Shown: positions 10,373 through 41,698 of the stretch, in pieces | Position numbering within the stretch: position 1 is the stretch's first letter | Layout: every line of letters begins with the position of its first letter | DNA from: Epibacterium ulvae | GTDB taxonomy: Bacteria; Pseudomonadota; Alphaproteobacteria; Rhodobacterales; Rhodobacteraceae | NCBI RefSeq assembly: GCF_900102795.1 | Contig: NZ_FMWG01000003.1 | Coordinates: forward strand, 1 to 64,000 | Direction: 5' to 3' | Length of the DNA stretch: 64,000 nucleotides | Notes under the pieces: generated by a model | Told to the model about the DNA's origin: nothing | What the model saw: the letters and a program-made list of their open reading frames with translations, nothing else | Databases searched by the model: none | Position numbers and translations under genes: made by a program

Positions 10373-13300
10373 ATGGACCTCGCTCGTTTCGCACTCGAAA
10401 AGCGGCTGATTTCTTATGTCGCAACACTCTTGATTCTCTTTGCAGGGTACTTCGCCTATACCGTTCTTCCGCGCTTTGAGGACCCGGAATTTGTGATCCG
10501 CCAAGCACAGATAGTTACACCCTATCCTGGTGCTTCAGCTGAAGAAGTGGTGGAAGAAGTCACCGAAGTCGTGGAGAACGCGCTTCAACAGCTACAAGGC
10601 GTCCTAGAGGTGCGCTCAGTTTCTTCGCCAGGGCTCAGCACAGTAACGGTCGAATTCACGATTGCCTCGACGCCAGACTACGCTGAACTGAACCAAAAGT
10701 TCTCGCAGATGCGCTCGAAGATTTTGGACGCGCAGTCTCAATTGCCGCCGAACGCATTGGCGAGCCAAGTGTATGACGACTTCGGAGATGTTTACGCCCA
10801 ATATTACGCAATCACTGGCGAAGGCTTCACAATTTCAGACCTGTACGAATACGCAAAAGACTTGCAACGCGAATTGGTCACCGTTGATGGGGTGTCCAAA
10901 GTCGTCTTGAACGGGGTGCAGGACGAGGTGATCTATGTTGAGTATTCTCCTGCGAGCTTAACCGAATTGGGCCTTGCATCATCACAAATTCAACAACTGC
11001 TAGAGGGGCAAAATCTCGTTACACCTGCTGGGTCGGTAAAAGCTGGATCTGCCCGTTTGTTGGTCCGCCCGGAAACCGCAGTGGGGTCCATTGAAGCCAT
11101 CGAGGCGCTGCTCATAACAAACGCTCAGACGAGGACGTCCTTCCGGCTTGGTGATATCGCGACGGTCTATCGTGGGCTCAAGGAACCTGCGTCGTCGTTG
11201 CTCTACCGTAACGGACAGCAAGCGATAGGATTGGGAATATCAAATACATTGGGCGGCAATGTTGTGAACATGGCCGAAGCTGTGAATGCGCGCATTGCAG
11301 AGCTTGAAGCTGAGCGGCCCATCGGTATCGACGTTGCTCCAATCTCGGATCAAGGCTCCAGCGTGAAGGCCTCTGTCGATGATTTTGTGGTCAATGTCGT
11401 GGTGGCTTTGGCGATTGTGGTTGGCACTCTGCTCGTCTTCATGGGCTTGCGTTCCGGCATCCTTATGGGCGGCATCCTACTTGTCACTGTGGCAGGCACG
11501 CTGTTTGGCATGTACCTTTACGGGCTAGATATGCAGCGCATCTCGCTTGGCGCATTGATCATTGCCCTGGGCATGTTGGTCGACAACGCCATCGTCGTTG
11601 TCGAGGGAACCCTTGTACGTGTTCAACGAGGAGAAGATGCATCGGAAGCTTCCCGCGCTGTGGTCAAACAAACAATGTGGCCGCTTCTCGGCGGTACGGT
11701 CGTGGGTATTCTTGCCTTCTCACCCATCGGGTTCTCGCCGGATAACACCGGCGAATACGCAGGCAGCTTGTTTTGGACAATTGCCATTGCGCTCTTGTTC
11801 TCGTGGCTCATCGCTATCTGGTTGACGCCGTATTACTGCGCGGTTCTGCTCAAGGCGGGCAAGGCCAACACGGATAAATCAGAGAATATCATGCTGCGCG
11901 GGTATCGTAGCCTCCTCGTATTCGCCATTCGTGTGCGGTGGCTTACTGTGGGTCTGGTTTTGGCGCTGTTTGCCTCAGCCATTGTGATGTTTAGCGCGGT
12001 GCCTGCCGGGTTTTTCCCATCATCAACACGTGCTCAGTTTGTGATTGATTACTTTCTGCCGCAAGGCACTGATATCAGTCGCACGGAAAGTGACGTCCTA
12101 GAAATCGCCGAGTTCGCGCGAGGGCTTGAAGGTGTCACAGGCACCAACACCGTCGTCGGTGGCGGGCATTTGCGCTTCATGCTGATCTACGAGTCCGAGA
12201 ACAACAATGCGGCCTACGGTCAGGTTCTTGTCGACGTCGAAGACTTCTCGGCCATCGATGGGCTGCGGACAACGTTACAATCTCACATTGACGGGAACTA
12301 TCTGGAATCTAATGCCAAGGTCTGGAAGTTTGTGCTTGGGCCGGGAGGTGGTTCGAAAGTTGAAGCACAGTTTGTTGGTCCAGATGCAGAGGTCCTGAGG
12401 GACCTTGCTGGACAAGCTAAAAGCATCATGTCAAATGCTGGTGCAGTTGCGGTCAAAGACGACTGGCGAGAGCAGTTGCAAGTCGTTCGGCCTGTCATCA
12501 ACAATGAAAATGCGCGCAGGCTTGGGCTGACCCAAGGCGAGATATCCAACGCGATCTATGGTCACCTCACAGGTACAACGCTGGGTGTCTACCGCGAGGG
12601 TGATGAGTTGCGCAATGTGGTCATGCGACCCGTGGAGGCTGCGCGAAACGACGTGGCTGAGATGCGCAATATTCAGGTCTTCAGTTCTGCAGCCGGCGGC
12701 TATATCCCTATCAGCCAAGTCGTTGACCGCTTCGATATTGTATTCGAGGCCGGAAACCTGAGACGCATCGACCGGGCGCTGACCATCACTGCGCAAGCCG
12801 ACAATGCACCAGGCGTTCTATCTGGCGATTTGTTCGATGCCGTAAAGGCACCGATCGAAGCGATCCCATTACCACCGGGCTACAGCTTTGAATGGAAGGG
12901 AGAGTTCGGCAACAGTGCGGAAGCGAATGCGGGCCTTGCATCCACCATGCCCATTGGGTTTGGAGCTATGTTCTTTGTCGTCCTGTTCCTCTTCAATGCA
13001 TGGCGTCAGACTATCATCATCTGGCTGGTCGTACCTTTGGCGCTCATCGGCGTGATCTATGGCCTTGCCGGAACGCAAACGCCGTTGGAGTTCATGGCCA
13101 TTCTTGGTGTGCTGTCATTGACTGGCATGTTGATCAAGAACGCCATTGTGCTGATTGACGAAACGGACAGTCAGATCGAAGCAGGCAAGGCACGCATGTC
13201 CGCTGTGGTGGATGCTGCCGTCAGCCGCGTGCGACCAGTCTCTCTGGGTGTTCTGACCACGGTGCTTGGAGTTGTGCCACTACTATGGGACCCGTTTTTT

Positions 13301-13426
13301 ACATCGTTGGCGATCGTCATCATCTGCGGCCTGAGCTTTGCGACCATCCTGACGCTCATCATCGTGCCAACACTCTATTCGATCTTTTTCAATGTGAGGC
13401 AGAGCGAGGCCGATACACCTGTTTGA
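10373..13426 (+). CDS. RND-family efflux permease (AcrB-like)
   Basis: At 1017 residues it has the standard AcrB-type size, with an N-terminal transmembrane helix, two large periplasmic loops and two groups of membrane helices. The proton relay region in TM4 reads GMLVDNAIVVVEG near 395-407, so one of the two Asp residues of AcrB is Asn, as in a recognised sub-branch of RND pumps. TM10 has the relay Lys in GMLIKNAIVLIDE near 918. It is co-transcribed with the adaptor at 9121. No outer membrane factor or regulator is adjacent. Substrates cannot be predicted. Confidence 0.92.
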   Translation: MDLARFALEKRLISYVATLLILFAGYFAYTVLPRFEDPEFVIRQAQIVTPYPGASAEEVVEEVTEVVENALQQLQGVLEVRSVSSPGLSTVTVEFTIASTPDYAELNQKFSQMRSKILDAQSQLPPNALASQVYDDFGDVYAQYYAITGEGFTISDLYEYAKDLQRELVTVDGVSKVVLNGVQDEVIYVEYSPASLTELGLASSQIQQLLEGQNLVTPAGSVKAGSARLLVRPETAVGSIEAIEALLITNAQTRTSFRLGDIATVYRGLKEPASSLLYRNGQQAIGLGISNTLGGNVVNMAEAVNARIAELEAERPIGIDVAPISDQGSSVKASVDDFVVNVVVALAIVVGTLLVFMGLRSGILMGGILLVTVAGTLFGMYLYGLDMQRISLGALIIALGMLVDNAIVVVEGTLVRVQRGEDASEASRAVVKQTMWPLLGGTVVGILAFSPIGFSPDNTGEYAGSLFWTIAIALLFSWLIAIWLTPYYCAVLLKAGKANTDKSENIMLRGYRSLLVFAIRVRWLTVGLVLALFASAIVMFSAVPAGFFPSSTRAQFVIDYFLPQGTDISRTESDVLEIAEFARGLEGVTGTNTVVGGGHLRFMLIYESENNNAAYGQVLVDVEDFSAIDGLRTTLQSHIDGNYLESNAKVWKFVLGPGGGSKVEAQFVGPDAEVLRDLAGQAKSIMSNAGAVAVKDDWREQLQVVRPVINNENARRLGLTQGEISNAIYGHLTGTTLGVYREGDELRNVVMRPVEAARNDVAEMRNIQVFSSAAGGYIPISQVVDRFDIVFEAGNLRRIDRALTITAQADNAPGVLSGDLFDAVKAPIEAIPLPPGYSFEWKGEFGNSAEANAGLASTMPIGFGAMFFVVLFLFNAWRQTIIIWLVVPLALIGVIYGLAGTQTPLEFMAILGVLSLTGMLIKNAIVLIDETDSQIEAGKARMSAVVDAAVSRVRPVSLGVLTTVLGVVPLLWDPFFTSLAIVIICGLSFATILTLIIVPTLYSIFFNVRQSEADTPV

Positions 13427-13943: not shown

Positions 13944-15185
13944 CTATTTCATACTGAACACTTGCTTCATTTCGGCCCACCACTCGCCGTCTTTGCGAGT
14001 TTCGAACGGGTCTTGCATCGGTCCACAAACTGCCCACCATTTCTGTGTTGTAGGATCTGCAGCGATCGCGGCCATGTCGGTCGCTAAATCTGTTCCGGTG
14101 TATTCAAAATATGCAAACATTAGATGCTCGGGTTCTTTAAGGAAAATTGAATAGTTAGAGATATTTGATGCTTTTATACGGTCTAGTACACCCGGCCAGA
14201 CATCGGCATGTAGTTCAATGTAACGTTGAGCATTTTCCGGTCTTAGGCGGATCGTGCTACCAACGCGTAAAAGTTCATTCGGTGCATTGAACGGTAAAAT
14301 AGCGCCTTTGTGACCAATAACCTCTCGGGCAATTTCGTGGGCACTTGAGAGACAAGAGCTTTCGGATTCTCCTTTTATATAAGCCGCAAGAAAGCCGCCA
14401 TTGAAACTATCCCCTGCGCCGGTTGTATCTTTAACAACGTCCGCGGCTGGATACTGGGTCTCGTAGCTCACTCCGCTTAACGGGACTGGGCCAGCTGCTC
14501 CCATTTTCAGTGCGCCTTGTTTGACGCCGATACGATTGAGGCGTTCGATCAGAACCTGATGTGACACATCATCAAATAATGCAATCTCATCTTCGATGGT
14601 CGGAAGGCCGATATCTGTAATCTCCCAGAATGCTTTGACCCAGCGGCGCGCTGTTTCTGTATCTTCCCACAGTGAGGTACGGAAATTTGAATCGAAAGCG
14701 ATTTTCCGATTGGTGGATCGTTTGGATTTTAGAGTGTTGAAAAGGCGCGCGCGGCCTTCTTCAGACATGATCGCAAGCGTGATACCCGACAAATAAACGA
14801 GGTTTGCTGATGAGATTGCTAAGGCTTCGAGGCGATCTTCTTGATCAAAAAGTAAACGCGCCGCAGCCCTATCGCGCCAATAGTGAAAGCGGCGCTCCCC
14901 GTTTGCATCGTTTTGAAGCGCGTATATGCCCATATTGCGACTGGGGTGGTGCCGGACATATTCGGTTGAGATGCCTTCGCGTTGCATCAGGTCCAAGACC
15001 CCTTCAGAGGCGGCGTCTTCGCCCAGAACCGTTACGTAATCGACTTGGATATCTTGATCTGTTGTCTCACGTGCCAAGTAAATTGCCGTGTTCAAAGTGT
15101 CACCACCGAACGCGATTTGCATGCCTTGTGGTCCGTTTGAAATTTCTGCGAGTGGTTCACCGATGCAGGCGACACGATACGTCAT
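13944..15185 (-). CDS. fusion of PfkB-family 2-keto-3-deoxygluconate-type kinase and L-rhamnose/L-fucose-type mutarotase
   Basis: Residues 1-300 are a PfkB sugar kinase: substrate-side GGDTLNTAIYLAR at 28-39 and ATP/catalytic motif DTTGAGDSFNGGF at 253-265, with Asp259 as likely base. Residues about 305-413 are a complete RhaM-type mutarotase (LRPENAQRYIELHADVWPG with catalytic-type His326, YSIFLKEPEHLMFAYFEY, TQKWWAV, GEWWAEM). RhaM proteins normally stand alone at about 105 residues. The kinase half most resembles KDG kinases. The start codon overlaps the lactonase stop (ATGA). In the proposed pathway the two halves act at the first step (sugar anomer interconversion) and the last (KDG to KDPG). 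Substrates are inferred from the neighbours. Confidence 0.85.
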   Translation of the reverse strand: MTYRVACIGEPLAEISNGPQGMQIAFGGDTLNTAIYLARETTDQDIQVDYVTVLGEDAASEGVLDLMQREGISTEYVRHHPSRNMGIYALQNDANGERRFHYWRDRAAARLLFDQEDRLEALAISSANLVYLSGITLAIMSEEGRARLFNTLKSKRSTNRKIAFDSNFRTSLWEDTETARRWVKAFWEITDIGLPTIEDEIALFDDVSHQVLIERLNRIGVKQGALKMGAAGPVPLSGVSYETQYPAADVVKDTTGAGDSFNGGFLAAYIKGESESSCLSSAHEIAREVIGHKGAILPFNAPNELLRVGSTIRLRPENAQRYIELHADVWPGVLDRIKASNISNYSIFLKEPEHLMFAYFEYTGTDLATDMAAIAADPTTQKWWAVCGPMQDPFETRKDGEWWAEMKQVFSMK

Positions 15186-16036
15186 GAGCGTTGTTCCAAA
15201 CCGTAGAAGTGCTGTGCCGTTCCGCCGAAGATGGCAATTTTTTCGTCAGGTGTAAGTTGGCTGAGCAGCTGTTCAGCAACTGTGTGCCAACCTTCATAGT
15301 GGCCCGCTAAATTGAGAACTGGCCAATCGCTGCCCCACATCAACCGGGTTGGTCCAAAGACCTGAAGCACGTGGTCAACCGTAGGTTTGAGTTGACCAAC
15401 ATTCCAATCAGGACCGGCCTCATTTGCAAGGCCCGAGATTTTGCACATGACATTTGGGCATTTTGCCAGTCGCGCCATTTCATTGCGCCAGACGGTTCCC
15501 GGTTCCTTTGTGCTCGCAATTTCGGGCTTGGCACAATGATCGATGACTATTGGCAGATCTGGCAACGCTTGCGCAATTTCTGCGACGACATCAAGATGGC
15601 GAGGTGTAATGAGGGCATCCAATCTAAGCCCCATTTCAGTAACCTGTTCTAAAGCCTCGATAACTTTTGGTCGTGCAATCCATCGGGTCTCTTCGATGTC
15701 CTGCAGCATGGGGCGGATGCCTTTAAACCATGGGTTTTGCGACAGGCGAGATAGCGTTTCAAGGACAGTATCTGCTTCCAAGTCAACCCAACCTACGACG
15801 CCTTTGATAAACGGTGTCGCCTCGGCCAAAGACAGCAAAAACTCGGTTTCAGACACCGTATCAGCGGCTTGCACTACGATGGTGCCATCTATGCCTTGAG
15901 CTTTTATGAGGGGCGCCAAGTCAGCAGGAAGGGTGTCGTGGCGAATGTCTGCCACCTCTTCAGTCATCCACGCGTAATCCCCGCGCGAAATCTGCCAAAA
16001 ATGTTGATGCGCATCAATTTTCTGAGTGGATGACAA
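15182..16036 (-). CDS. amidohydrolase-2 family sugar lactonase (L-fucono/L-galactono-lactonase type)
   Basis: The metal-dependent amidohydrolase begins IDAHQHFW and has the family order KGVVGWVDLEA, FKGIRPMLQD, PIVIDHCAKPEI, VMCKISGL and RLMWGSDWPV; it fits L-fuconolactonase/L-rhamnonolactonase relatives. An ATG at 16054 lacks a ribosome site, whereas GAGGAG lies six bases before the TTG at 16036, so that start is preferred. The product would hydrolyse an aldonolactone made by the aldo-keto reductase at 17239. It is translationally coupled to the kinase-mutarotase gene (ATGA). A candidate operator (16068-16090) lies just upstream. Confidence 0.85.
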   Translation of the reverse strand: MSSTQKIDAHQHFWQISRGDYAWMTEEVADIRHDTLPADLAPLIKAQGIDGTIVVQAADTVSETEFLLSLAEATPFIKGVVGWVDLEADTVLETLSRLSQNPWFKGIRPMLQDIEETRWIARPKVIEALEQVTEMGLRLDALITPRHLDVVAEIAQALPDLPIVIDHCAKPEIASTKEPGTVWRNEMARLAKCPNVMCKISGLANEAGPDWNVGQLKPTVDHVLQVFGPTRLMWGSDWPVLNLAGHYEGWHTVAEQLLSQLTPDEKIAIFGGTAQHFYGLEQRS

Positions 16037-16067
16037 AGTGGTCTCCTCAAACATCGTGCTTGCTATT

Positions 16068-16090
16068 TGGTTTTATATAATTAAAAACCA
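16068..16090. promoter_or_regulatory. candidate operator A of the sugar locus
   Basis: This 23-base site is an imperfect palindrome: TGGTTTT at the left, AAAACCA at the right, with 9 of 11 positions pairing around a central A. It contains the core ATAATTAAAAAC (16077-16088), also found at sites B and C before the ABC importer. It lies between the divergent lactonase and reductase genes. The GntR regulator at 18218 is the likely ligand; that is inference. Confidence 0.55.
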
Positions 16091-16126
16091 TTTTGTAAAG
16101 CACCTTCACACAGGGAAGGAAACTTG

Positions 16127-17242
16127 ATGGTGGTGACCCCAATTTTGCAATTCGGCACTAGTCGTTTTTTGCAGGCTCATGCCGATCTATTTGTGTCAGA
16201 AGCTCGTGAAAATGGGCAGAAGGCAGGGCCGATCACTGTTGTGCAAAGTTCGGATGACCCGGCAAGGCGCGCGCGTCTTGAGGCGCTGGAAAAAGGATTT
16301 CCCGTGCGCATCGAGGGGATCAGTGATCGAGAGCCCGTGCAAGAAACCGTGCAGGTGACGAGCGTCAAGCGGGCTCTATCGACAGCCATCGACTGGTCAG
16401 AAGTTACCCGCGTTTTTGTAGACGAGACAGAAATTGTGTTGTCCAACACTGGGGACACAGGTTTTGAACCCTCTGAAGCTGACACTGGCCGTCAGTTTGA
16501 CCAATCGATGTCTTATCCGGCGAAGCTAAAGTTGTTGCTTCAGTCGAGGTTCGCCGCCTCAAAGTGTGGTATCCAAATCATGCCGATGGAACTGATTATC
16601 GACAACGGTCACGTTTTAAGAGATCGCGTTTTGGAGCTGGCACAAAATGACTCCGATGCGTTTCGGACTTACTTGCAAAGAGATGTTGTGTGGGTCAATT
16701 CACTGGTTGACCGCATTGTCTCTCAGCCATTGCGGCCAGCAGGTGCGGTGGCAGAACCTTATGCGCTTTGGGCGATCGAAGATCAGCCGGGACTTAAGCT
16801 TCCGTGCAGCCATCCATCTGTTCAAGTGGTGCCTTCATTAGCCCAAATCGAAGCTTTGAAGCTCTTTGTTTTGAATCTTGGCCATACTGTATTGGCCGAT
16901 CATTGGCTGCAGTCTCGGGGATGCAAGGGCACGAAGGTGCGTGAGATGATGGCGGAGCCGAAAACGCGCCATCATCTTGAGCAGGTTTATCAACTCGAAG
17001 TGAGGCCCGCGTTTTCCGCAGCAGGTATTGCGCAAGAGTTCGATGACTATGTGCAGACCACGTTCGAGCGATTTGAAAACCCATTTCTGGATCATCGTAT
17101 TGCCGATATCGCCCAAAACCATAATCAGAAGATTGAGCGGCGGATCAAAGCCATGTTGGACTTCGCGATTGAACACAACGACCGTAGCCCCAAACCGGTA
17201 TTAACGGGGATCGTGGGCCGTCAAACGCGAGACGCATCATGA
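16127..17242 (+). CDS. mannitol dehydrogenase-family oxidoreductase, tagaturonate reductase-like
   Basis: The ATG at 16127 follows GGGAAGGA at good distance. The 371-residue protein starts with a dinucleotide-binding motif of the polyol dehydrogenase type (ILQFGTSRFLQAHADLF), then MPMELIIDNGHVLRD and VNSLVDRIVSQP, matching UxaB (tagaturonate reductase) and UxuB rather than mannitol dehydrogenase proper. It is about 110 residues shorter than E. coli UxaB. Expected reaction is NADH reduction of D-tagaturonate to D-altronate. It overlaps the aldo-keto reductase gene by four bases (ATGA). Substrate is inferred from the altronate dehydratase and dehydrogenase in the same locus. Confidence 0.75.
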   Translation: MVVTPILQFGTSRFLQAHADLFVSEARENGQKAGPITVVQSSDDPARRARLEALEKGFPVRIEGISDREPVQETVQVTSVKRALSTAIDWSEVTRVFVDETEIVLSNTGDTGFEPSEADTGRQFDQSMSYPAKLKLLLQSRFAASKCGIQIMPMELIIDNGHVLRDRVLELAQNDSDAFRTYLQRDVVWVNSLVDRIVSQPLRPAGAVAEPYALWAIEDQPGLKLPCSHPSVQVVPSLAQIEALKLFVLNLGHTVLADHWLQSRGCKGTKVREMMAEPKTRHHLEQVYQLEVRPAFSAAGIAQEFDDYVQTTFERFENPFLDHRIADIAQNHNQKIERRIKAMLDFAIEHNDRSPKPVLTGIVGRQTRDAS

Positions 17243-18216
17243 AGATGGAATTGAGACCCGTGGGACAAACAGATTTATCCGTAACCTCATTGTCCTTTGG
17301 TGCATCAAGTATTGGGAATATGGGGCAAGTGGTGTCAGAGCAAGCGACAACCGATGTGCTGGCGCATGCGTGGCGGGCCGGTATTCGGTATTTTGACACA
17401 GCGCCTCATTATGGGAGGGGCTTGTCCGAAACACGTTTAGGCAGATATCTGTCAACGAAACCAAGAGATGAATTTGTGCTGTCTACCAAGGTGGGGCGTG
17501 TTTTATTTCCGGGCCCTGCGCTTGAGGAGGCTGATGGGTTTATGAACCCTCTGCCGAATGCAGTGCGATACGACTACTCCGCTGACGGCATCATGGAAAG
17601 CTTTGAGGGCAGCTGTAAACGGCTCGGTACCTCAAATGTCGAAATCCTTTTTGTTCACGACATCGGAGATATTACACACGGCGCAGAAGAAGGGCATCGT
17701 CATTTCGAAGACCTGATGGGGTCGGGATTTCAAGCCCTAAAAGACCTCAAACAATCCGGACGGGTGCAGGCCATTGGGCTTGGTGTGAATGAAACGCAGG
17801 TCTGCTTAGATGTCATGGAGCAGGAAACGCTTGATGTAATTCTGCTCGCAGGCCGATTGACTCTTCTTGATCGGCAGGCTGAGGAGAACTTGCTGGCGAA
17901 GTGCAAGGATCAAGGCACCAGCTTGGTCCTAGGTGGAATATTCAATTCCGGCATTCTTGCGACGGGTCCAAAACCGGGAGCTTGGTTCGACTACGCGCCC
18001 GCATCTGAGGCGGTGCTGGAGAAAGTTCGGGCGCTCGAAGAACGTGCGCAGAACAGCGGCCTTTCTCTCGCCGAAGCCTCGGTGCAATTTGCGCTCCTTC
18101 ACCCCGCTGCGTGTTCCGTCTTGCTGGGCACCGGAAAGGTCAGCTCATTACAGCGCAATATGGATGCCGCAGTTCTGGATTTAGATGGCCCAGCACTAGA
18201 ATTCGTGACGACTTGA
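17239..18216 (+). CDS. aldo-keto reductase, L-fucose/L-galactose 1-dehydrogenase type
   Basis: This 325-residue AKR has the catalytic set Asp and Tyr in YFDTAPHYGRG, Lys in LSTKVGRV and His in FVHDIGDI. The overall pattern (RPVGQTDLSVTSLSFGAS start, long insertion with PLPNAVRYDYS) fits the D-threo-aldose/L-fucose dehydrogenase branch, known to oxidise L-fucose, L-galactose and D-arabinose at C1 to lactones. It is the second gene of the plus-strand pair and is coupled to the upstream reductase. In the proposed pathway it makes L-galactonolactone, the substrate of the lactonase at 15182. Confidence 0.82.
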   Translation: MKMELRPVGQTDLSVTSLSFGASSIGNMGQVVSEQATTDVLAHAWRAGIRYFDTAPHYGRGLSETRLGRYLSTKPRDEFVLSTKVGRVLFPGPALEEADGFMNPLPNAVRYDYSADGIMESFEGSCKRLGTSNVEILFVHDIGDITHGAEEGHRHFEDLMGSGFQALKDLKQSGRVQAIGLGVNETQVCLDVMEQETLDVILLAGRLTLLDRQAEENLLAKCKDQGTSLVLGGIFNSGILATGPKPGAWFDYAPASEAVLEKVRALEERAQNSGLSLAEASVQFALLHPAACSVLLGTGKVSSLQRNMDAAVLDLDGPALEFVTT

Positions 18217-18217
18217 A

Positions 18218-19126
18218 TTACCCGTCCGCGTGGTCATGCGCCCTAAGTGAATTCAGCAATGTCTGTGTCGAGGTCGCCAGATGAACTCTTGCGGCGGCCT
18301 CTGCTTTGACCGGATCACGGCTGCGGAGTGCGTCCAGATAAGCCAGATGTTCATGTATCGCGCTTTCGTTGCGGATGCGCTCGTCTGATTTGTTCCATTG
18401 AAAATGGTAGTGGAAAATCAGCGAGATGATCTTCTGAAATTCTTTCACAAACCGGTTGTCAACCACGGAGTTGATCGCAGTGTGGAAGCGTTGATCCAGC
18501 CGAGAGAAGTCATGAAACTTCTCGTCGATCTCCGTTAACAGCGTCCGGTGTTCTGTTTCCAATGTTTGAAGGCGAGCCCAGATCGGGTGTTCTTTGGGAA
18601 GTGTTATCAGCTGCCGCACCGCGTTGAGTTCCAGGACGGAACGGAATTCTGAAAGCTCAAGCGCAAAGGACGTTGTGAAACCTTCCAATAGCCACCCTCC
18701 TTTTGGGCGGCGCGCAACAATGCCGTAGCGGCTGAGGGATGACAGAAATTCTTGTAGCGTATGAGTTGCTACGCCGAACTCCTTTGCAAGCTGCGCGACG
18801 TTCAACACGGTACCGGCGGGAACATCCATGTGCAGAACCCACTCAAAGAATCGGTTCTCCAGTTCATCCAGCCCTTGCGGCGCGGGCGGCCTCTCCATTT
18901 TGTCGTCCTCATTGGAGCGCCGTAGGATCGCTTTGTGGCGTCCATTCAAGGCGACAATACCCGCTTTTGTCAGGCGCTCCAGTGCGCTACGCACCACCGT
19001 TCGACTGACGCCAAGGTCCAACGCCAAGGCATTTTCTGACGCAAGAGAGCTTCCAATTTCTTCATTATCACAAATGGTTAGGAGCTTGTTGTATGCTTCA
19101 ACCAGTCGAATGTTTGTGCGTGCCAT
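18218..19126 (-). CDS. GntR/FadR-type regulator with two winged-helix domains
   Basis: The 302-residue protein has one GntR winged helix at about 1-69 (LALDLGVSRTVVRSALERLTKAGIV) and a second winged-helix-like segment at about 90-150 (LNVAQLAKEFGVATHTLQEFL, then GIVARRPKGGWLLEGF). It is followed by an all-helical FCD ligand domain to the end with RLDQRFHTAI and H-residue positions typical of metal/ligand pockets. It is convergent with the aldo-keto reductase gene (1-base gap) and divergent from the ABC permease gene. It most likely represses the sugar locus until an acid intermediate binds. The duplicated DNA-binding part is unusual. Confidence 0.85.
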   Translation of the reverse strand: MARTNIRLVEAYNKLLTICDNEEIGSSLASENALALDLGVSRTVVRSALERLTKAGIVALNGRHKAILRRSNEDDKMERPPAPQGLDELENRFFEWVLHMDVPAGTVLNVAQLAKEFGVATHTLQEFLSSLSRYGIVARRPKGGWLLEGFTTSFALELSEFRSVLELNAVRQLITLPKEHPIWARLQTLETEHRTLLTEIDEKFHDFSRLDQRFHTAINSVVDNRFVKEFQKIISLIFHYHFQWNKSDERIRNESAIHEHLAYLDALRSRDPVKAEAAARVHLATSTQTLLNSLRAHDHADG

Positions 19127-19185
19127 GTCACCTGCCTATCAACAATTCATTTCAGCTATAATGGTTCTCTTGGCATTGTACAAAA

Positions 19186-19197
19186 ATAATTAAAAAC
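19186..19197. promoter_or_regulatory. candidate operator B (core ATAATTAAAAAC)
   Basis: The 12-base core is identical to that in operator A. It lies 60 bases upstream of the GntR start (on the other strand) and 89 bases upstream of the preferred permease start, suiting control of both divergent promoters. Confidence 0.5.
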
Positions 19198-19232
19198 ACT
19201 TGACCGGTAATGGGGAAGTTGAAATGTTCAAA

Positions 19233-19244
19233 ATAATTAAAAAC
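19233..19244. promoter_or_regulatory. candidate operator C (core ATAATTAAAAAC)
   Basis: This is a third identical core, 47 bases after operator B, followed by CA as in operator A. If translation began at an ATG at 19224 the site would be inside the gene. Its position supports the downstream permease start at 19275. Confidence 0.5.
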
Positions 19245-19274
19245 CAAATTTGGATTTGGTTAGGGAGGAATACA

Positions 19275-20294
19275 GTGACAATGACTGCCCCAGCAGAGGC
19301 CCGCCGGTTGCGGTTCTTACCGTCTGGCACTTCGATTCATAAGCTATCAGCGGTGCTGACACTCTGTCTGCTGATTACCGTTTTTTCGTTCACCAGTTCG
19401 GCGTTCTTCAGCGTCAACAACGGGCTGACTGTCCTGTTGCAGACATCCGTTATCGGATTGCTCGCCATTGGGATGACCCTTGTGATCATCACAGGGGGGA
19501 TCGACCTTAGCGTCGGGTCGGTGCTCGCCCTTTCGGGAGTTGTGGCCGGGTTGTTCATCAAGGCGGGGCTACCGGTTGTGCCTGCAATGGGTGTCGGTGT
19601 GCTTGCAGGGGCCGCCTGTGGGTTTGTGAATGGATTTGTCATCACCAAGATGCGTATCACACCCTTTGTCGCGACGCTTGGCATGATGTTGATTGCACGC
19701 GGTATCGCCTTGCAGCTGACAGGTGCAGCGCCGATCAGTCGTCTTGGAGAAGCCTTCGGCGAACTCGGGAACGGTACATTGTTCCGCATCGTAGACATGC
19801 AAGCCAACGGATTTCCAAAGGTGATCTTTCCCGGCATCCCTTATCCGGTGATCTTGCTTGCCGTGATCGCCATTCTTGGGGCGTATCTGCTGCAAAAGCG
19901 TCAGTTCGGTCGCCACATCTTCTCCGCTGGCTCCAACGAAGAGGCTGCGCGTCTGTCCGGCGTGAATGTCGACCGCACAAAAATCTGGACCTACGCGCTG
20001 TCTGGGGGATTGGCTGGCTTGTCTGGCATGGTTCTGATGTCTCGTCTTGTGACTGTGCAGCCAAATGAAGGTGTGATGTACGAACTCGATGCCATTGCAG
20101 CATCAGTTATTGGCGGTGCGTCTTTGATGGGCGGAGTAGGCAGCATTTCTGGCAGCATGATCGGTGCCTTCATCATTGGTGTTCTGCGTAACGGCCTGAA
20201 TATGGCCGGCACTTCGGCCTTTGTTCAAATGATCATCATTGGTGTGGTCGTGATTGGCGCCGTCTACATCGATCAGATCCGCAACAAAACCTAA
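19275..20294 (+). CDS. ribose-type ABC sugar transporter permease
   Basis: About 339 residues with 8-10 membrane helices. The RbsC/FrcC family signature is present: GMTLVIITGGIDLSVGSVLAL near the N-terminus and the conserved GRHIFSAGSNEEAARLSGVNV plus DAIAASVIGGASLMGGVGS toward the C-terminus. GTG at 19275 is chosen because AGGGAGGAA precedes it by six bases; ATG at 19281 is also possible. It is the first gene of a run permease, binding protein, ATPase, dehydrogenase, dehydratase. The sugar carried is inferred to be L-galactose or a relative. Confidence 0.9.
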   Translation: MTMTAPAEARRLRFLPSGTSIHKLSAVLTLCLLITVFSFTSSAFFSVNNGLTVLLQTSVIGLLAIGMTLVIITGGIDLSVGSVLALSGVVAGLFIKAGLPVVPAMGVGVLAGAACGFVNGFVITKMRITPFVATLGMMLIARGIALQLTGAAPISRLGEAFGELGNGTLFRIVDMQANGFPKVIFPGIPYPVILLAVIAILGAYLLQKRQFGRHIFSAGSNEEAARLSGVNVDRTKIWTYALSGGLAGLSGMVLMSRLVTVQPNEGVMYELDAIAASVIGGASLMGGVGSISGSMIGAFIIGVLRNGLNMAGTSAFVQMIIIGVVVIGAVYIDQIRNKT

Positions 20295-20324
20295 GAACCA
20301 AACATCTTCAAACGGGAGGAAACC

Positions 20325-21263
20325 ATGAAGAGACTACTGACGACAACGATCGTATCGGGGGTACTGGCTGCAGCGGCTACCATTGCGAGCGCTGGCGAGA
20401 TCGCGGTGATCGTGAAAACCACGAACTCCAACTTCTGGCAAAACGTGAACAAAGGCGCGAGCGCCGCTATCGAAAACCACTCTGGCCACACAATGACCTT
20501 CAATGGACCGGCGTCGGAATCCGCAATTGCGGACCAAGTTGCTCTGGTTGAGAATGCGGTTAACCGTGGCGTTGCAGGCATTGTTCTGGCACCGTCTGAC
20601 CCAGAAGCGCTGGCCCCTGTGGTAAAACGCGCGTTTGAATCCGGTATCCCTGTTGCGATCATCGACAGCGGCCTCGCAGAAGGGAACGAGCAGTATTACC
20701 AAGCCTTCCTGTCCACCGACAACTGCGCAGCGGGTCAACAAGCCGCCGCAATGATGATCGACGAAGCGGGCACTTCCGGCAAGGTCGCAGTCATGTCCTA
20801 CGTGGCAGGCGTTGGCTCTGAAATCGGCCGTGTTGGCTGCTTTGTCGAACATATCGAAGGCAACTCCGACATCGAGATCGTGGGCCCATTCTACTCGCAG
20901 TCTCAGATGGCAACCGCGCTGAACCAAACTACCGACATTCTGGCCGCCAATGACTTGGTGGGCATCTTCGGCGCAAACGAACCTACAGCCATCGGCATGG
21001 GCCGTGCGCTGGAGCAGTCTGGTAAGGCAGGCACCATCACAGCCATCGGTTTTGACGGCAATGCCGATCTGCAGGACATGGTGAAATCGGGAACCTTGGT
21101 GGCCACTGCAGTTCAGGGGTCTTTCCAAATGGGTGAGCTGGGCGTGAACGCCGTTGCAGAAATCTTGGCTGGCAAGTCTGTAGAAGGCTTTATCGATACG
21201 GGGGTTGTTCTGGTGACCCAAGACAACATCGACGAGCCGAAGGCGCAGAACGTTCTGTACTGA
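20325..21263 (+). CDS. periplasmic sugar-binding protein of the ribose-type ABC importer
   Basis: The 312-residue product has a Sec signal peptide (MKRLLTTTIVSGVLAAAATI, cleavage near ASA) and a type I periplasmic binding fold: EIAVIVKTTNSNFWQNVNKG, PSDPEALAPVVKRAF, IPVAIIDS and GFDGNADLQDMVKSG. AACGGGAGGAAACC precedes the ATG closely. It sits 30 bases after the permease gene. The bound sugar cannot be read directly. Confidence 0.92.
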   Translation: MKRLLTTTIVSGVLAAAATIASAGEIAVIVKTTNSNFWQNVNKGASAAIENHSGHTMTFNGPASESAIADQVALVENAVNRGVAGIVLAPSDPEALAPVVKRAFESGIPVAIIDSGLAEGNEQYYQAFLSTDNCAAGQQAAAMMIDEAGTSGKVAVMSYVAGVGSEIGRVGCFVEHIEGNSDIEIVGPFYSQSQMATALNQTTDILAANDLVGIFGANEPTAIGMGRALEQSGKAGTITAIGFDGNADLQDMVKSGTLVATAVQGSFQMGELGVNAVAEILAGKSVEGFIDTGVVLVTQDNIDEPKAQNVLY

Positions 21264-21343
21264 TCGCTTAAGGGTGGCGTGTTGCGCGCGCCACTCATTT
21301 CGACCTGCAAAGGTTGCCTTATAAGAACCGACAAGGAATTCGC

Positions 21344-22141
21344 ATGTTGGATGTTTCTTCTTCCAATACACCGCTGGTCCAGATGGTGGATATCTACAAG
21401 CAATTTGGAGGAATTCATGCTGTCGAAGGCGTATCGACGGATCTCTACCCAGGCGAAGTGATGGGGGTGCTTGGTCACAACGGCGCGGGTAAATCCTGTT
21501 TGATGCGCATGTTGTCCGGTGCGATGACACCAACACGCGGCGACATTTTTGTGAATGGTCAAAAGGCTGCGCTAAAATCTCCTCAAGATGCGCGTGGCTT
21601 TGGCATCGAGACGATTTATCAAACGCTTGCCTTGGCAAATCACCTTGATGCGCCTGCGAACTTGTTTATGGGGCGCGAACTCAAAACGCGATTTGGCAAT
21701 CTTGATGAAAAACGCATGCTGGCAGAGGCAACTGATGCTCTGCGACAGCTCAACCCAAATTTCAAAAACCTACGCGATCCAGTCGCACGGCTGTCCGGTG
21801 GTCAAAGACAAGTAATCGCAATTGCACGGGCGATCTATTTCCAAGCCAAAATTTTAATCATGGATGAGCCCACCGCGGCACTCGGCCCTTCGGAAACCGC
21901 CATGGTTGCAGACCTGACAAAGCGGCTGAAAAATGAAGGTATCGGCATCTTTCTGATCAGCCATGACATGGAAGATGTGTTCGAGCTTTGCGACCGCGTG
22001 ATGGTGATGAACAAAGGCCGAAATGTCGGCACATTCCGCATTGGGGACGTCAATAAAGACGACATCCTTAGTTTGATCATCAAAGGCACCCTGCCTGACG
22101 ATTGGGAACCACGCGGCGCGAACAAAGAGTCTTCCAAATGA
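21344..22141 (+). CDS. ABC transporter ATP-binding protein, single-domain FrcA-like
   Basis: The 265-residue ATPase has Walker A GHNGAGKS, signature LSGGQRQ, Walker B ILIMDEPTAAL and switch His in ISHD. It carries one nucleotide-binding domain, like FrcA of fructose/mannose importers, rather than the tandem pair of RbsA or MglA. The ATG at 21344 follows AAGGAATTCGC and lies in frame after a less likely ATG at 21314. The stop overlaps the next start (ATGA at 22138). It powers the importer of the locus. Confidence 0.9.
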   Translation: MLDVSSSNTPLVQMVDIYKQFGGIHAVEGVSTDLYPGEVMGVLGHNGAGKSCLMRMLSGAMTPTRGDIFVNGQKAALKSPQDARGFGIETIYQTLALANHLDAPANLFMGRELKTRFGNLDEKRMLAEATDALRQLNPNFKNLRDPVARLSGGQRQVIAIARAIYFQAKILIMDEPTAALGPSETAMVADLTKRLKNEGIGIFLISHDMEDVFELCDRVMVMNKGRNVGTFRIGDVNKDDILSLIIKGTLPDDWEPRGANKESSK

Positions 22142-23148
22142 ATAATATGAGCGCGCCGTTTGGCGTTATTGAAGAACCCGGCAAGTTTTCAATCCAACAG
22201 CGCCCAGAGCCCGTTGCGGCCCCTGATGGCTGGGTTCTGGTCGATATCTGTGCGGTTGGCCTGTGCGGCACCGACTATCATATCTTCGAAGGTAAACATC
22301 CTTTCCTGCAGTATCCGCGTGTGATCGGTCACGAATTGAGCGGTCGCATTGCTGAAGATACAGCCGGGTGGCGCAAGGGTGATCTTGTTGTGATCAACCC
22401 TTATTTGGCGTGCGGCGCATGTCATGCATGTCGTAGAGGTAAACCAAATTGCTGTGAAAATATCGAGGTGCTTGGTGTGCATCGTGATGGCGGGCTGACA
22501 ACGCGGTTGTCTGTGCCAGGTGGGAACTTGATCGCGGCTGAAGGGTTGAGCGCTCAGCAGGCTGCCATGGTCGAATTTTTGGCAATTGGTGCCCATGCTG
22601 TTCAACGGTCTGGGGTCACCGCAGAAGACAAAGTCCTTGTGACCGGGGCAGGTCCAATCGGCCTAGGTGCGGCCCTGTTTGCGCGATTAAAAGGGGCAGG
22701 GGTCTCTCTGCTTGATCTGGATTCAAAGCGGCTGAATCTCGCCAAAGAGCGGTTTGGATTGACGGATTGCTATTCTGATATCGCAACAGCTTTGGAAGAC
22801 AATGAAGGCTACGACGCTGTCTTTGATGCGACAGGCCATAAGGGTGCGATCGAAGCAGGTTTTTGCCTTGTAGCACACGGTGGCAGCTACGTTCTGGTAA
22901 GCGTCGTGAAAGAGGATATCACCTTCAGCGATCCGGAATTCCACAAACGCGAAATGCGCTTGATTGGCAGCCGCAATGCGTTGAGCGGTGACTTTGATTG
23001 GGTTATGAGTGCCATCCGCGATGGTTCAATAGATACAGATGCTCTGTGCTCCGAAGTGCTCCGATTGAAGGATTTGCCTGACCGTTTCGCCGGCCTCTCG
23101 GCTGATCGCAGCGGGATAATCAAAGTGATTGTCGAACTCGAGACCTAA
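22138..23148 (+). CDS. zinc-dependent dehydrogenase resembling L-galactonate 5-dehydrogenase (LgoD)
   Basis: A medium-chain dehydrogenase of 336 residues. Catalytic zinc ligands lie in GLCGTDYHIF and GHELSGRI. Structural zinc Cys4 is CGACHACRRGKPNCC, and the cofactor fold is GAGPIGLGA. Stretches such as YPRVIGHE, CCENIEVLGVHRDGG and FSDPEFHKREMRLIGSRNA strongly recall E. coli YjjN/LgoD, which oxidises L-galactonate to D-tagaturonate. Translation is coupled to the ATPase gene by ATGA overlap. Together with the downstream altronate dehydratase and the tagaturonate reductase it completes a three-step conversion to KDG. The family match is from memory of the E. coli sequence. Confidence 0.82.
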   Translation: MNNMSAPFGVIEEPGKFSIQQRPEPVAAPDGWVLVDICAVGLCGTDYHIFEGKHPFLQYPRVIGHELSGRIAEDTAGWRKGDLVVINPYLACGACHACRRGKPNCCENIEVLGVHRDGGLTTRLSVPGGNLIAAEGLSAQQAAMVEFLAIGAHAVQRSGVTAEDKVLVTGAGPIGLGAALFARLKGAGVSLLDLDSKRLNLAKERFGLTDCYSDIATALEDNEGYDAVFDATGHKGAIEAGFCLVAHGGSYVLVSVVKEDITFSDPEFHKREMRLIGSRNALSGDFDWVMSAIRDGSIDTDALCSEVLRLKDLPDRFAGLSADRSGIIKVIVELET

Positions 23149-23153
23149 GTCAG

Positions 23154-24647
23154 ATGACCTCAAGAACGCTGAAACTTCATGTCGACGATAATGTGTCGAT
23201 TGCTTTGGAACCGCTTGGACTGGGCGAAGAAGGTGCTGTTGAAGCGATCCCGAAATCTCACAAAATCGCAACGCGGGATATCTCTGTTGGGGAAAATATT
23301 CTGCGCTATGGGCAAGTGATCGGGAAAGCAGATCACAGCATTCGCGCCGGTGAGCATGTGCACGATCACAACATGAGCATGCAGGCGCGCAGGGCTGAAA
23401 ATCGGATTGCAGAAAACAGTATCCCTCTACCAGCGATGCAGCCCGCAGTTTTTCAGGGCTACCACCGAATAGATGGTCGCGTTGGGACACGCAATTACAT
23501 AGGCATTCTGACCACGGTAAACTGCTCTGGTTCCGTCGCTCAGTTTATCGCGCGCGAAGCAGAGAAATTGGGCCTTCTGGAGCGCTTTCCAAATGTGGAC
23601 GGAATTGTTCCAATTGCGCATGGGACCGGGTGCGGCATGAGCAATCGAGGCGAAGGCTACGAACTACTTCAGCGCACTTTGTCTGGCTATGCACGACATC
23701 CGAACTTTGGCGGCGTACTTCTGATCGGACTTGGGTGCGAAGTCATGCAGCTTGCCGATTTGGTTGAGGGTAAATCGATTACTTCGGACGGGCTTCTACG
23801 ATACATGACTATCCAACACGCTGGTGGAACGCGCAGAACCGTTGAGGCAGGGTTGAAGCAAGTTCAGTCTCTTGCTGAACAAGTCGACGCTTTTAAGCGC
23901 GCACCCGCACCCGCCTCTGAACTTGTTCTGGGAATGCAGTGCGGAGGGTCGGATGGCTATTCCGGATTCACGGCTAACCCGGCACTCGGGGTCGCCTCTG
24001 ATTTGCTGGTACGCCAAGGCGGTACATCCATTTTATCTGAAACCTCCGAAATTTATGGCGCAGAACACCTTCTGATAAACCGTGCTGCGTCTCGGGAGGT
24101 TGGCCAAGCTCTGCTCGATAAGCTCAAATGGTGGGAAGAATACTGCGCCAAACACGGAGCGGAACTGGACAACAACCCAAGCCCCGGCAACAAGCGGGGC
24201 GGTTTAACGACCATCCTAGAAAAGTCGCTTGGGGCGGTCGCAAAGGCAGGGCAAGCGCCGCTATCGGGCGTTTTCGATTACGCAGCGAAAATAGATGCAA
24301 AGGGTTTAGTGTTCATGGATAGCCCTGGATACGATCCCTGTTCCGTGACAGGACAAGTCGCATCTGGTGCCACGCTGATTGCTTTCACCACCGGTCGCGG
24401 ATCCGTATCAGGTTATTTTCCTACGCCGTGCATCAAGTTGGCTTCAAATTCTGACTTGTTTGAGCGGATGAGTGACGACATGGACGTTAACTGCGGGGAC
24501 ATCGTTGATGGTGTGACTTTGGATGAAAAGGGCAAGGAGGTTCTCGCAAAAATCTTGAGCGTCGCGAGCGGAGAGAAGACAAAGAGTGAAGCACAAGGGT
24601 ACGGTAATGTTGAGTTCGTTCCGTGGCTGCTGGGAGCAATTTTGTAG
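23154..24647 (+). CDS. uxaA: altronate dehydratase (UxaA family)
   Basis: At 497 residues this is full length for UxaA. The N-terminal SAF domain (about 1-95) contains GEHVHDHNMS; the main domain carries YHRIDGRVGTRNYIG, HGTGCGMSNRGEGYE, GLGCEVMQ, GMQCGGSDGYSGFTANPA and VFMDSPGYDPCSVTGQVASG. Family members dehydrate D-altronate to 2-keto-3-deoxy-D-gluconate; galactarate and other dehydratases are close relatives, so D-altronate is supported mainly by the adjacent reductase and dehydrogenase. It is the last gene of the importer operon, 5 bases after the dehydrogenase stop. Confidence 0.85.
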   Translation: MTSRTLKLHVDDNVSIALEPLGLGEEGAVEAIPKSHKIATRDISVGENILRYGQVIGKADHSIRAGEHVHDHNMSMQARRAENRIAENSIPLPAMQPAVFQGYHRIDGRVGTRNYIGILTTVNCSGSVAQFIAREAEKLGLLERFPNVDGIVPIAHGTGCGMSNRGEGYELLQRTLSGYARHPNFGGVLLIGLGCEVMQLADLVEGKSITSDGLLRYMTIQHAGGTRRTVEAGLKQVQSLAEQVDAFKRAPAPASELVLGMQCGGSDGYSGFTANPALGVASDLLVRQGGTSILSETSEIYGAEHLLINRAASREVGQALLDKLKWWEEYCAKHGAELDNNPSPGNKRGGLTTILEKSLGAVAKAGQAPLSGVFDYAAKIDAKGLVFMDSPGYDPCSVTGQVASGATLIAFTTGRGSVSGYFPTPCIKLASNSDLFERMSDDMDVNCGDIVDGVTLDEKGKEVLAKILSVASGEKTKSEAQGYGNVEFVPWLLGAIL

Positions 24648-31565: not shown

Positions 31566-31666
31566 TGTGCTTTAGACCGTTGATCGAAATTGAGACATTC
31601 AATTTCTAGACCCGTGATATCACAAGGATAAGACAGGTTTCGGTTTGACCGGAAAAAAAGCGGTGA

Positions 31667-32626: not shown

Positions 32627-32641
32627 GATACATCTGTCCAT

Positions 32642-39575: not shown

Positions 39576-39586
39576 TGCGCCCTCGT

Positions 39587-40732: not shown

Positions 40733-40854
40733 TACGCTCCTCCTTGCATCTTGAAATGAACATTTGTTCTTTTATAGCAAGATTAACCATCTCCAACAAG
40801 CTGGCGTCAGACATATGCCCCGACGGAACAAGATTTAGATGAGATCACATGACA

Positions 40855-40878
40855 CAAAAAAGGCGCCCAAAGGCGCCT
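40855..40878 (-). terminator. intrinsic terminator after the L,D-transpeptidase gene
   Basis: On the minus strand AGGCGCC and GGCGCCT (40861-40867 / 40872-40878) form a stem with a four-base loop, and a T-run (A-run at 40855-40860 on plus) follows. Confidence 0.75.
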
Positions 40879-40903
40879 GAATTGATCTCACTGTTCTTGT
40901 GCG

Positions 40904-41506: not shown

Positions 41507-41651
41507 GATCGGCCTCGTTCTCAGAACTCGTTTGCACTTGTAATACTGCGTTTATAGGCAACTGGCAAAGGAGCTGAGATCACAATCCTGTAAAGCTTGG
41601 TTAACTTATGGCAAAGAATTGCCGAACCGAAAGCTGCAGGTATCCCGGAAA

Positions 41652-41671
41652 CGGGCGCCACACGGCGCCCG
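41652..41671 (-). terminator. terminator-like hairpin after mmsA
   Basis: CGGGCGCC and GGCGCCCG pair around a four-base loop, 28 bases beyond the mmsA stop; on the minus strand TTTCC follows. The T-tract is short. Confidence 0.45.
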
Positions 41672-41698
41672 GATCTGTTTTGTATCAATCCGTGGATT

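Follow-up and report, generated by a model that had tools for sequence, protein, structure and literature searches.

A ten-gene locus in Epibacterium ulvae with a predicted route from L-galactose to KDPG

The window analysed here, a 64,000-nucleotide stretch of the Epibacterium ulvae contig NZ_FMWG01000003.1 (positions 1 to 64,000), contains a block of ten intact open reading frames at positions 13944 to 24647, and family matches cover most of the length of each (Pfam). The enzyme families that the first-pass annotation had named for these frames were borne out by the Pfam matches and by intact motifs. The genes and operator-like elements are as follows.

13944 to 15185, minus strand: fusion of a PfkB-type KDG kinase (about residues 1-300) and a RhaM-type L-sugar mutarotase (about residues 307-413); PF00294, PF05336
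15182 to 16054, minus strand: amidohydrolase-2 sugar lactonase, L-fucono/L-galactono-1,5-lactonase type; NF052480, PDB 4dlf group
16070 to 16088, plus strand: operator-like pseudo-palindrome GTTTTATATAATTAAAAAC in the divergent lac|uxaB region
16124 to 17242, plus strand: UxaB-like D-tagaturonate reductase, short form; PRK03643, E. coli UxaB
17239 to 18216, plus strand: aldo/keto reductase (AKR), L-galactose/L-fucose 1-dehydrogenase type; PDB L-galactose dehydrogenases
18218 to 19126, minus strand: GntR/FCD regulator; PF00392, PF07729
19185 to 19197, plus strand: operator-like core element AATAATTAAAAAC
19200 to 20294, plus strand: ABC permease, ribose type; PF02653
19226 to 19244, plus strand: operator-like pseudo-palindrome GTTCAAAATAATTAAAAAC heading the importer operon
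20325 to 21263, plus strand: periplasmic sugar-binding protein; PF13407, PDB 4wut
21314 to 22141, plus strand: ABC ATPase of 275 aa that has one nucleotide-binding domain; PF00005
22102 to 23148, plus strand: LgoD-like zinc L-galactonate 5-dehydrogenase; E. coli LgoD, PRK10083
23154 to 24647, plus strand: UxaA/GarD-family dehydratase, proposed D-altronate dehydratase; PF20629, PF04295, PF08666

The true start of the permease probably lies near 19281, as judged from the starts of its homologs and the position of the operator. No abrupt shift in base composition was seen at the locus.

Catalytic motifs were intact, and they were invariant or nearly so across the aligned orthologs (11 to 73 per gene): D53/Y58/K84/H140 in the AKR, HxH and SDWP in the lactonase, K-x4-N-x2-H in the UxaB-type dehydrogenase, both the catalytic and the structural zinc ligands in the LgoD-like enzyme, GAGD in the PfkB kinase domain, and four Cys in the dehydratase, which we take to be the metal ligands of the family. 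The roles of the residues listed for the AKR, lactonase, dehydrogenases, dehydratase and kinase are likewise presumed. Identities to the E. coli enzymes were low (28 to 38%), and among the matches listed no NCBIfam model was exceeded at its own cut-off. The specific assignments nevertheless survived comparison with E. coli and PDB proteins. The AKR, which had been called an L-fucose/L-galactose type, had five L-galactose dehydrogenases as its top PDB matches (80 to 106 bits, the next at 58), and the lactonase matched the L-fucono-1,5-lactonase model NF052480 at 231 bits, below the cut-off of 400, and the PDB 4dlf group at 140 bits. The zinc dehydrogenase was closer to LgoD (222 bits, 38%) than to RspB (145) or IdnD (98), as had been proposed, although its best solved structure carries an rspB label (4ilk, 137 bits) and its PRK10083 match (177 bits) was under the cut-off of 376. 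At 372 aa, the UxaB-like protein is shorter than its 483-aa E. coli counterpart, and its type was upheld by scores of 190 bits for tagaturonate reductase (PRK03643) versus 47 for fructuronate reductase; against E. coli proteins it scored 88 bits with UxaB, 72 with YdfI and 65 with UxuB. The dehydratase, the sole PF04295 match in the genome, had been annotated as UxaA; the family was right, but GarD was closer (326 versus 268 bits). It is the least certain of the enzyme assignments and may accept sugar acids other than D-altronate.

In the fusion, the PfkB kinase domain was 37% identical to E. coli KdgK and its PDB matches were KDG kinases, while the mutarotase domain, already recognised in the first pass, belongs to the RhaM family and has L-fucose mutarotase 7byu as its nearest solved relative (129 bits). 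The predicted structure of the fusion has two domains (mean pLDDT, 78), and among the 50 of 1639 Foldseek matches listed it was the kinase part that was matched. Cultured relatives such as Zongyanglinia and Monaibacterium isolates carry the fusion as well. The binding protein matched PDB 4wut at 424 bits, a structure reportedly solved with D-fucose, whose opposite ring configuration counts against the L-galactose reading.

An importer and a GntR regulator are present, as the first pass had it. The pseudo-palindrome occurs in both divergent promoter regions and, with at most one mismatch, at no further site in the 3.99-Mb genome; relatives carry an operator-like motif at matching positions. Because the motif is shared by both regions, unique in the genome and placed alike in relatives, the ten genes look like one regulon, probably regulated by the locus's own GntR protein, which would bind this motif; such a motif may make the regulon predictable from sequence. 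For the comparison of motif conservation, 12 of the 20 lac|uxaB regions were taken (63 pairs, flank identity below 0.9), and identity within the motif is inflated because these regions were chosen for a plus-strand site of at least 16 of 19. Classical GntR palindromes were rare in gntR|permease regions (TTGTACAA in 2/55, TGGTNNACCA in 0/55), and scans for sigma-70 promoters and terminators gave fewer matches than the shuffle mean. Gene content, intact active-site motifs, their conservation and the motif common to both divergent regions are the directly supported observations.

We consider it quite probable that the locus is a single L-galactose regulon, and we infer the substrate of every enzyme in the route. 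L-Galactose would be taken up by the ABC importer, its anomer exchange accelerated by the RhaM-type domain, and the sugar oxidized by the AKR to L-galactono-1,5-lactone, which the lactonase would open to L-galactonate. The LgoD-like enzyme would then oxidize C5, yielding D-tagaturonate, whose C5 the UxaB-like enzyme would reduce with the opposite stereochemistry, yielding D-altronate; the UxaA/GarD-family enzyme would dehydrate D-altronate to KDG, and the kinase domain of the fusion would produce KDPG. Every step up to KDPG has a candidate gene on the locus. The KDPG aldolase, Eda, belongs to a zwf-edd-eda operon on another contig (C13) and would split KDPG into pyruvate and glyceraldehyde 3-phosphate. 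By sequence alone, the genome has an AKR-family L-galactose 1-dehydrogenase, an LgoD-type L-galactonate 5-dehydrogenase and a reductase that fits UxaB, together with KDG kinase and KDPG aldolase; the dehydratase family also fits, yet with GarD nearer than UxaA. The assembled route put forward in the first pass therefore stands as the best reading, with the dehydratase step as its weak point.

Inversion of C5 in two steps followed by KDG kinase requires a 6-hydroxyl, which L-fucose lacks. Among the best 80 of 554 confirmed related loci, a linked KDG kinase gene was found in 11/38 loci with uxaB and 0/42 without it, and lgoD in all 38 uxaB loci; in the 68 of the 80 with full flanks, the kinase was found in 8/32 versus 0/36. 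This association reflects few independent events: in tests on the 73 loci with an LgoD match together with the window, phylogenetically independent pairs were few, and none ran in the opposite direction. Gene distribution in relatives also counts against the route. Three uxaB-less relatives (L036, L037 and L059) retain lgoD, and in two of their genomes (G004, 94% complete, and G035, 99%) a uxaB ortholog is lacking altogether (best matches, 31% and 26%), so the LgoD-like enzyme may have a different role in such relatives. Moreover, among the same 80 loci uxaA was not enriched with uxaB (22/38 versus 29/42 without).

Several other substrates were dropped. D-Galactose has what looks like its own dgoK-dgoA-lactonase(SGL)-GH42 locus on contig C20; an L-gulonate/D-fructuronate route conflicts with the reductase scores, and UxuA is missing from the ten genes, as is the uronate isomerase UxaC of the D-galacturonate pathway. 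C5 of D-arabinose is a primary alcohol, which leaves no place for the LgoD-type and UxaB-type steps. The suggested link to red-algal polysaccharides was unsupported: no GH16 match was found, and each of the six sulfatases detected is on a contig other than this one. Nothing usable came from literature searches on a roseobacter L-galactose pathway, a kinase-mutarotase fusion and a Paraburkholderia importer, and the main text of a Colwellia paper had no L-galactose passage.

L-Fucose required closer weighing. Genes of the L-fucose tail, SDR and/or FAH (2-keto-3-deoxyfuconate 4-dehydrogenase and 2,4-diketo hydrolase), lie near the same importer in 31 of the best 80 of 554 loci, and this locus type is therefore predicted to serve L-fucose and/or L-galactose. 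Both SDR and FAH are absent from the ten genes here. A FAH homolog (52 to 70%) was found in 10/10 related genomes searched, which held seven of the eight fusion loci and three others, whereas no ortholog of FAH (best, 33%) or FucD (best, 35%, partial) and no FucI were found in this genome. For this reason L-fucose is an unlikely substrate here, and an L-fucose-only locus was rejected. The first-pass preference against L-fucose thus held, but the absence of a fuconate dehydratase, on which it was argued, carries little weight, because the dehydratase gene adjoins L-fucose-tail genes in relatives and because gene context in Paraburkholderia has led to a UxaA/GarD-family enzyme being assigned as an L-fuconate dehydratase (PMC6336799). 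Such an enzyme could stand in for FucD.

It is unlikely, in our estimate, that the locus has a dual use overlapping with the L-galactose route, in which the front end accepts both sugars, the dehydratase acts on L-fuconate as well as D-altronate, and the products of L-fucose exit through SDR and FAH, here via unrecognised genes elsewhere. In five congeners the same dehydratase gene is followed by SDR and FAH, and in a sixth these adjoin lgoD. SDR or FAH occurs in 30/51 uxaA loci versus 1/29 without uxaA (best 80 of 554; 26/45 versus 1/23 with full flanks), and both lie directly downstream of the fusion in four of the eight fusion-bearing loci (8 of the best 80 of 554). Besides the context-based assignment, PMC6336799 gives another family member 5.6% relative activity on L-fuconate, with an NMR product check inconsistent with plain dehydration. 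The missing FAH, FucD and FucI stand against dual use, and here the fusion is followed downstream by an AcrB-type gene on the opposite strand. Direct dehydration of L-galactonate to 2-keto-3-deoxy-L-galactonate, with the dehydrogenases acting on another compound, appears highly unlikely: it would leave no function for the LgoD-like and UxaB-like genes, and lgoD accompanies uxaB in all 38 cases noted above. In its favor, L-galactonate and D-altronate share their C2-C4 configuration, and the dehydratase is retained in uxaB-less relatives. The same paper describes one member acting on both acids (12% and 2.4% of the D-arabinonate rate) and an Acidovorax member proposed from unpublished data as an L-galactonate dehydratase. 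About equally unlikely is that the later steps serve a different compound, for instance L-glucose by way of a C4 epimerase, or L-galactonate taken up as such. Luteolibacter applies the same enzymes to L-glucose with the epimerase LguG (PMC12632266), and a Thalassospira plasmid combines LgoD-UxaB-UxaA genes with a TRAP importer in a stretch lacking AKR and lactonase; here, the AKR, lactonase and mutarotase genes suggest a free aldose, and no epimerase is among the ten genes.

Returning to the L-galactose route, we give even chances to a broader reading for Alphaproteobacteria, in which an L-fucose chassis (importer, AKR, lactonase, mutarotase, GntR operator and promiscuous UxaA/GarD dehydratase) would be extended by a removable C5-inversion module. 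This module (LgoD-like, UxaB-like and KDG kinase) would convert an L-sugar acid into a D-sugar acid. Both exits are retained at the locus in the five congeners examined that have uxaB, and the window genome would have dropped the L-fucose exit to become an L-galactose specialist, its fused protein joining the entry-step mutarotase with the exit-step kinase. It would offer a natural case of one pathway switching between L-fucose and L-galactose through gain or loss of a few genes.

The block thus probably imports L-galactose and converts it to a standard intermediate of central metabolism. To our knowledge, L-galactose catabolism has been demonstrated in few bacteria. Complete or partial versions of this locus type are found in named genomes of Rhodobacterales and rhizobia, plasmid-borne copies included, which would predict L-galactose users among marine and plant-associated bacteria and hint at the function of genes named 'D-mannonate oxidoreductase' and 'altronate dehydratase' in those genomes.

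In Bacteroides (Phocaeicola) vulgatus, BVU_0219, BVU_0220 and BVU_0222 are said to convert L-galactose via its lactone and L-galactonate to D-tagaturonate, in work attributed to Hobbs in 2014, and tagaturonate reportedly enters the general uronate pathway. The first steps to D-tagaturonate are shared, and only the present locus carries dedicated UxaB/UxaA-type and kinase genes. E. coli lgoD, uxaB, uxaA and kdgK, with which eda belongs, perform the L-galactonate-to-KDPG conversion proposed here, but entry is at L-galactonate and the genes are scattered. The AKR, lactonase and mutarotase front end is shared with the nonphosphorylative L-fucose pathway of Proteobacteria, and a rhizobial cluster with FucD has the same binding-protein family; unlike that pathway, the locus lacks FucD and the SDR and FAH tail. 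In PMC12632266, which cites two of the three BVU genes, the lgu cluster of Luteolibacter sp. LG18 was shown with purified enzymes and mutants to encode an L-glucose/L-galactose route, and no organism was found with the orthologs but without lguG. Compared by reactions, the route predicted here follows the same series, from L-galactose dehydrogenase and L-galactonate 5-dehydrogenase through D-tagaturonate reductase and D-altronate dehydratase, here a proposed assignment, to KDG kinase and KDPG aldolase. The two differ in that the present locus contains the KDG kinase as a fusion with a mutarotase, along with a lactonase, an importer and a GntR regulator; the aldolase lies outside it, and the ten genes have no C4 epimerase. 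The gene set, the tie to L-fucose breakdown and the fused first-and-last-step enzyme look new. The chemistry itself has precedents in other bacteria; since it is published for Luteolibacter, the locus is a variant rather than a new pathway.

A route from L-galactose through its lactone, L-galactonate, D-tagaturonate, D-altronate and KDG to KDPG had been proposed in the first-pass annotation for ten ORFs at 13944-24647. Their coordinates were confirmed, and the families named for them matched across most of each length. The locus contains two short gaps, each with divergent gene groups: the lactonase gene and the kinase-mutarotase fusion face uxaB and the aldo-keto reductase (AKR) gene, and the GntR gene faces the importer, lgoD and uxaA. 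Adjoining genes overlap by 4 to 40 bases in several cases, an operon-like arrangement. The flanking genes, two operator-like sites and other genes in the window are as follows:

10373-13426, AcrB-type transporter on one flank (family match only)
Opposite flank, zinc-binding dehydrogenase, enoyl-CoA hydratase and SDR (family match only)
16070, 19-base pseudo-palindrome GTTTTATATAATTAAAAAC in the lactonase-uxaB gap
19226, close copy of the 19-base pseudo-palindrome, ahead of the importer
30747-32641 (-), PP2C/SpoIIE-type phosphatase adjoining a VWA-domain protein
37645-43198, valine-catabolism-like genes for a 3-hydroxyisobutyrate-type dehydrogenase, enoyl-CoA hydratase, acyl-CoA dehydrogenase and aldehyde dehydrogenase
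58460-61879, large protein that combines TPP_enzyme_C, POR and DUF6537 domains and resembles indolepyruvate ferredoxin oxidoreductase; a divergent LysR gene adjoins

The importer ATPase (21314-22141) has 275 amino acids and one nucleotide-binding domain, and the RbsA-type profiles that match it span about 500 positions. The short single-domain form was common to the cassettes viewed from Rhodobacterales, Phyllobacterium and Martelella; the ATPase has about 515 amino acids in the cassettes of Burkholderia pyrrocinia (L058) and Neorhizobium (L061).

Allowing up to one mismatch, the window contains the 13-base core of the pseudo-palindrome three times, always at the locus (expected, 0.05). The longer degenerate pattern, allowing up to two mismatches, occurred twice, a number attained by 2 of 100 shuffles. 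When the whole 3.99-Mb genome was scanned with the degenerate pattern and up to one mismatch, only the 16070 and 19226 sites came up, and the reversed control gave none. The pattern was derived from the 16070 site, and that match is therefore not independent; independent support comes from the 19226 match, the silence across the rest of the genome and the occurrence in relatives. The best match was 15 to 19 of 19 positions in 20 extracted lactonase-uxaB regions and 12 to 16 in 55 gntR-permease regions, save those of the short L071 (8) and L116 (6). Motif identity was 92% versus 36% for the flanks (63 pairs from 12 lactonase-uxaB regions, including that of the window), the former figure being inflated because these regions were selected for at least 16 matching motif positions. 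In the best 80 of 554 related loci, the degenerate pattern matched 29 times in 1.60 Mb, with 25 of these matches within the two divergent regions and the other four in L075, L078, L079 and L123, that of L075 lying 69 bases upstream of its uxaB. We infer that GntR binds the pseudo-palindrome as a putative operator. Since a start at 19200 puts the 19226 site inside coding sequence, the start of the first importer gene is probably close to 19281.

Every NCBIfam match listed for the locus proteins fell short of its own cut-off, so the enzymes are divergent members of their families. Among E. coli proteins, the zinc dehydrogenase scored best with LgoD (38%, 222 bits, against 145 for RspB and 98 for IdnD), the UxaB-like protein with UxaB (88 bits, against 72 for YdfI and 65 for UxuB), and the dehydratase with GarD (38%, 326 bits), ahead of UxaA (34%, 268 bits), while the kinase part shared 37% with KdgK. 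The closest solved structures were L-galactose dehydrogenases for the AKR, the 4dlf group for the lactonase, an entry labelled rspB for the zinc dehydrogenase, YdfI for the UxaB-like protein and an L-fucose mutarotase for the mutarotase domain of the fusion. A close solved relative of the binding protein is 4wut, reportedly solved with D-fucose. Active-site motifs were kept in the aligned orthologs (11 to 73, depending on the gene). The structure model of the fusion consisted of the kinase part followed by the mutarotase part (mean pLDDT 78, the second part less confident), and Foldseek ranked KDG-kinase-like structures at the top.

C5 is the position at which L-galactonate and D-altronate differ; the LgoD and UxaB steps would therefore jointly invert it, after which D-altronate dehydratase would yield KDG. 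Phosphorylation of KDG requires O6; therefore, a 6-deoxy sugar such as L-fucose is barred from this exit, and on these chemical grounds L-fucose could not leave by KDG kinase. According to one report, L-galactonate and D-altronate are the same from C2 to C4, and one UxaA/GarD member was active on D-arabinonate and weakly so on D-altronate, L-fuconate and L-galactonate, with an NMR check of the low-level activity giving a partly unexpected outcome; the L-galactonate dehydratase proposed there within this family is based on unpublished data (PMC6336799).

Complete or partial cassettes were found in congeners, in family members and on plasmid records of Loktanella, Roseibium, Paracoccus, Phyllobacterium, Neorhizobium, Martelella, Thalassospira and others. 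The fusion was present in 8 of the 80 named loci that form the related set (the best 80 of 554), hosted by two Zongyanglinia, Parasedimentitalea, Ruegeria, Tateyamaria, Monaibacterium and two further Rhodobacteraceae, and thus it is not unique to the Epibacterium ulvae genome. Half of these fusion loci (4/8) carried, immediately downstream, the SDR and FAH genes of the L-fucose tail (2-keto-3-deoxyfuconate 4-dehydrogenase and 2,4-diketo hydrolase). In five congeners (G001, G004, G007, G011 and G015) this pair directly followed the dehydratase gene, with 78-81% identity to the Paracoccus liaowanqingii pair. In a sixth (G013), SDR (60%) and FAH (69%, both to the Neorhizobium genes) adjoined lgoD, and at L024 of this genome the kinase and mutarotase genes stood side by side but separate; no SDR or FAH gene was seen within the locus stretch examined in the related genome G035. 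The Neorhizobium cluster (L061) combined AKR, lactonase, RhaM, SDR, FAH and L-fuconate dehydratase (FucD) genes with a divergent uxaA-ZnDH-uxuB set alongside.

In co-occurrence counts over the best 80 of 554 loci, which take no account of shared ancestry, an SDR or FAH gene accompanied uxaA in 30 of its 51 loci and was present in 1 of the 29 loci lacking uxaA. A KDG kinase gene accompanied uxaB in 11 of its 38 loci and was present in 0 of the 42 loci lacking uxaB. Neither uxaA (22/38 with uxaB, 29/42 without) nor SDR/FAH (13/38 and 18/42) was associated with uxaB. On the LgoD tree, the kinase-uxaB effect showed no case in the opposite direction, with significance out of reach. Because of these patterns, we read the related loci as having a common front end and dehydratase and two exits, one by SDR and FAH and the other by C5 inversion and kinase. 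The latter was the only one of the two found in the Epibacterium ulvae genome (99.7% estimated completeness), where orthologs of FAH (best, 33%) and FucD, and FucI, were not found. FAH homologs (52-70%) were present in all 10 related genomes searched, including four fusion genomes without an adjacent FAH gene, and may act on other sugars.

Against the L-galactose reading, lgoD was retained in 35 of the 42 loci without uxaB (best 80 of 554), genomes G004 (best, 31%) and G035 (best, 26%) had no uxaB ortholog, and five loci (L102, L105, L132, L142 and L145) carried only the importer, GntR and an LgoD-like gene, with AKR, lactonase, UxaB and UxaA absent from the fetched stretch. Since lgoD is thus kept without uxaB, the LgoD-like enzyme may serve a further function. 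The substrate range of the UxaA/GarD member, the L-galactonate dehydratase proposed for that family and the D-fucose ligand of 4wut also count against the reading. In those five loci the dehydrogenase is closely coupled to the importer. A Thalassospira marina plasmid locus (L063) has GntR, LgoD-like, UxaB-like and UxaA-like genes and, after them, a TRAP transporter, with no AKR or lactonase within the stretch, and looks like a utilization locus for free L-galactonate or a similar acid.

The suggested link to red-algal polysaccharides was not supported in the Epibacterium ulvae genome, in which a search for agarases and porphyranases covering GH16 gave 0 matches and the six sulfatase matches were all on other contigs; scavenging of free L-galactose is the simpler picture. 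A related plasmid, from Paracoccus liaowanqingii (L059), carries an L-fucose-type cassette that has SDR and FAH but lacks UxaB; genes for a GH16 enzyme and a sulfatase lie near it, making this a possible sulfated-polysaccharide locus. Another cassette host, Roseibium algicola, is a strain isolated from the alga Rhodosorus marinus.

Searches of the open-access literature brought up no account of the fusion, of this gene set in Alphaproteobacteria, of its putative shared operator or of its connection with L-fucose loci; subscription papers could contain some of this. The first steps of the reaction series were reportedly established in Bacteroides vulgatus. In the Luteolibacter LG18 study, which cites the Bacteroides vulgatus work on the first steps, the reaction series was established with assayed enzymes and disrupted genes (PMC12632266).
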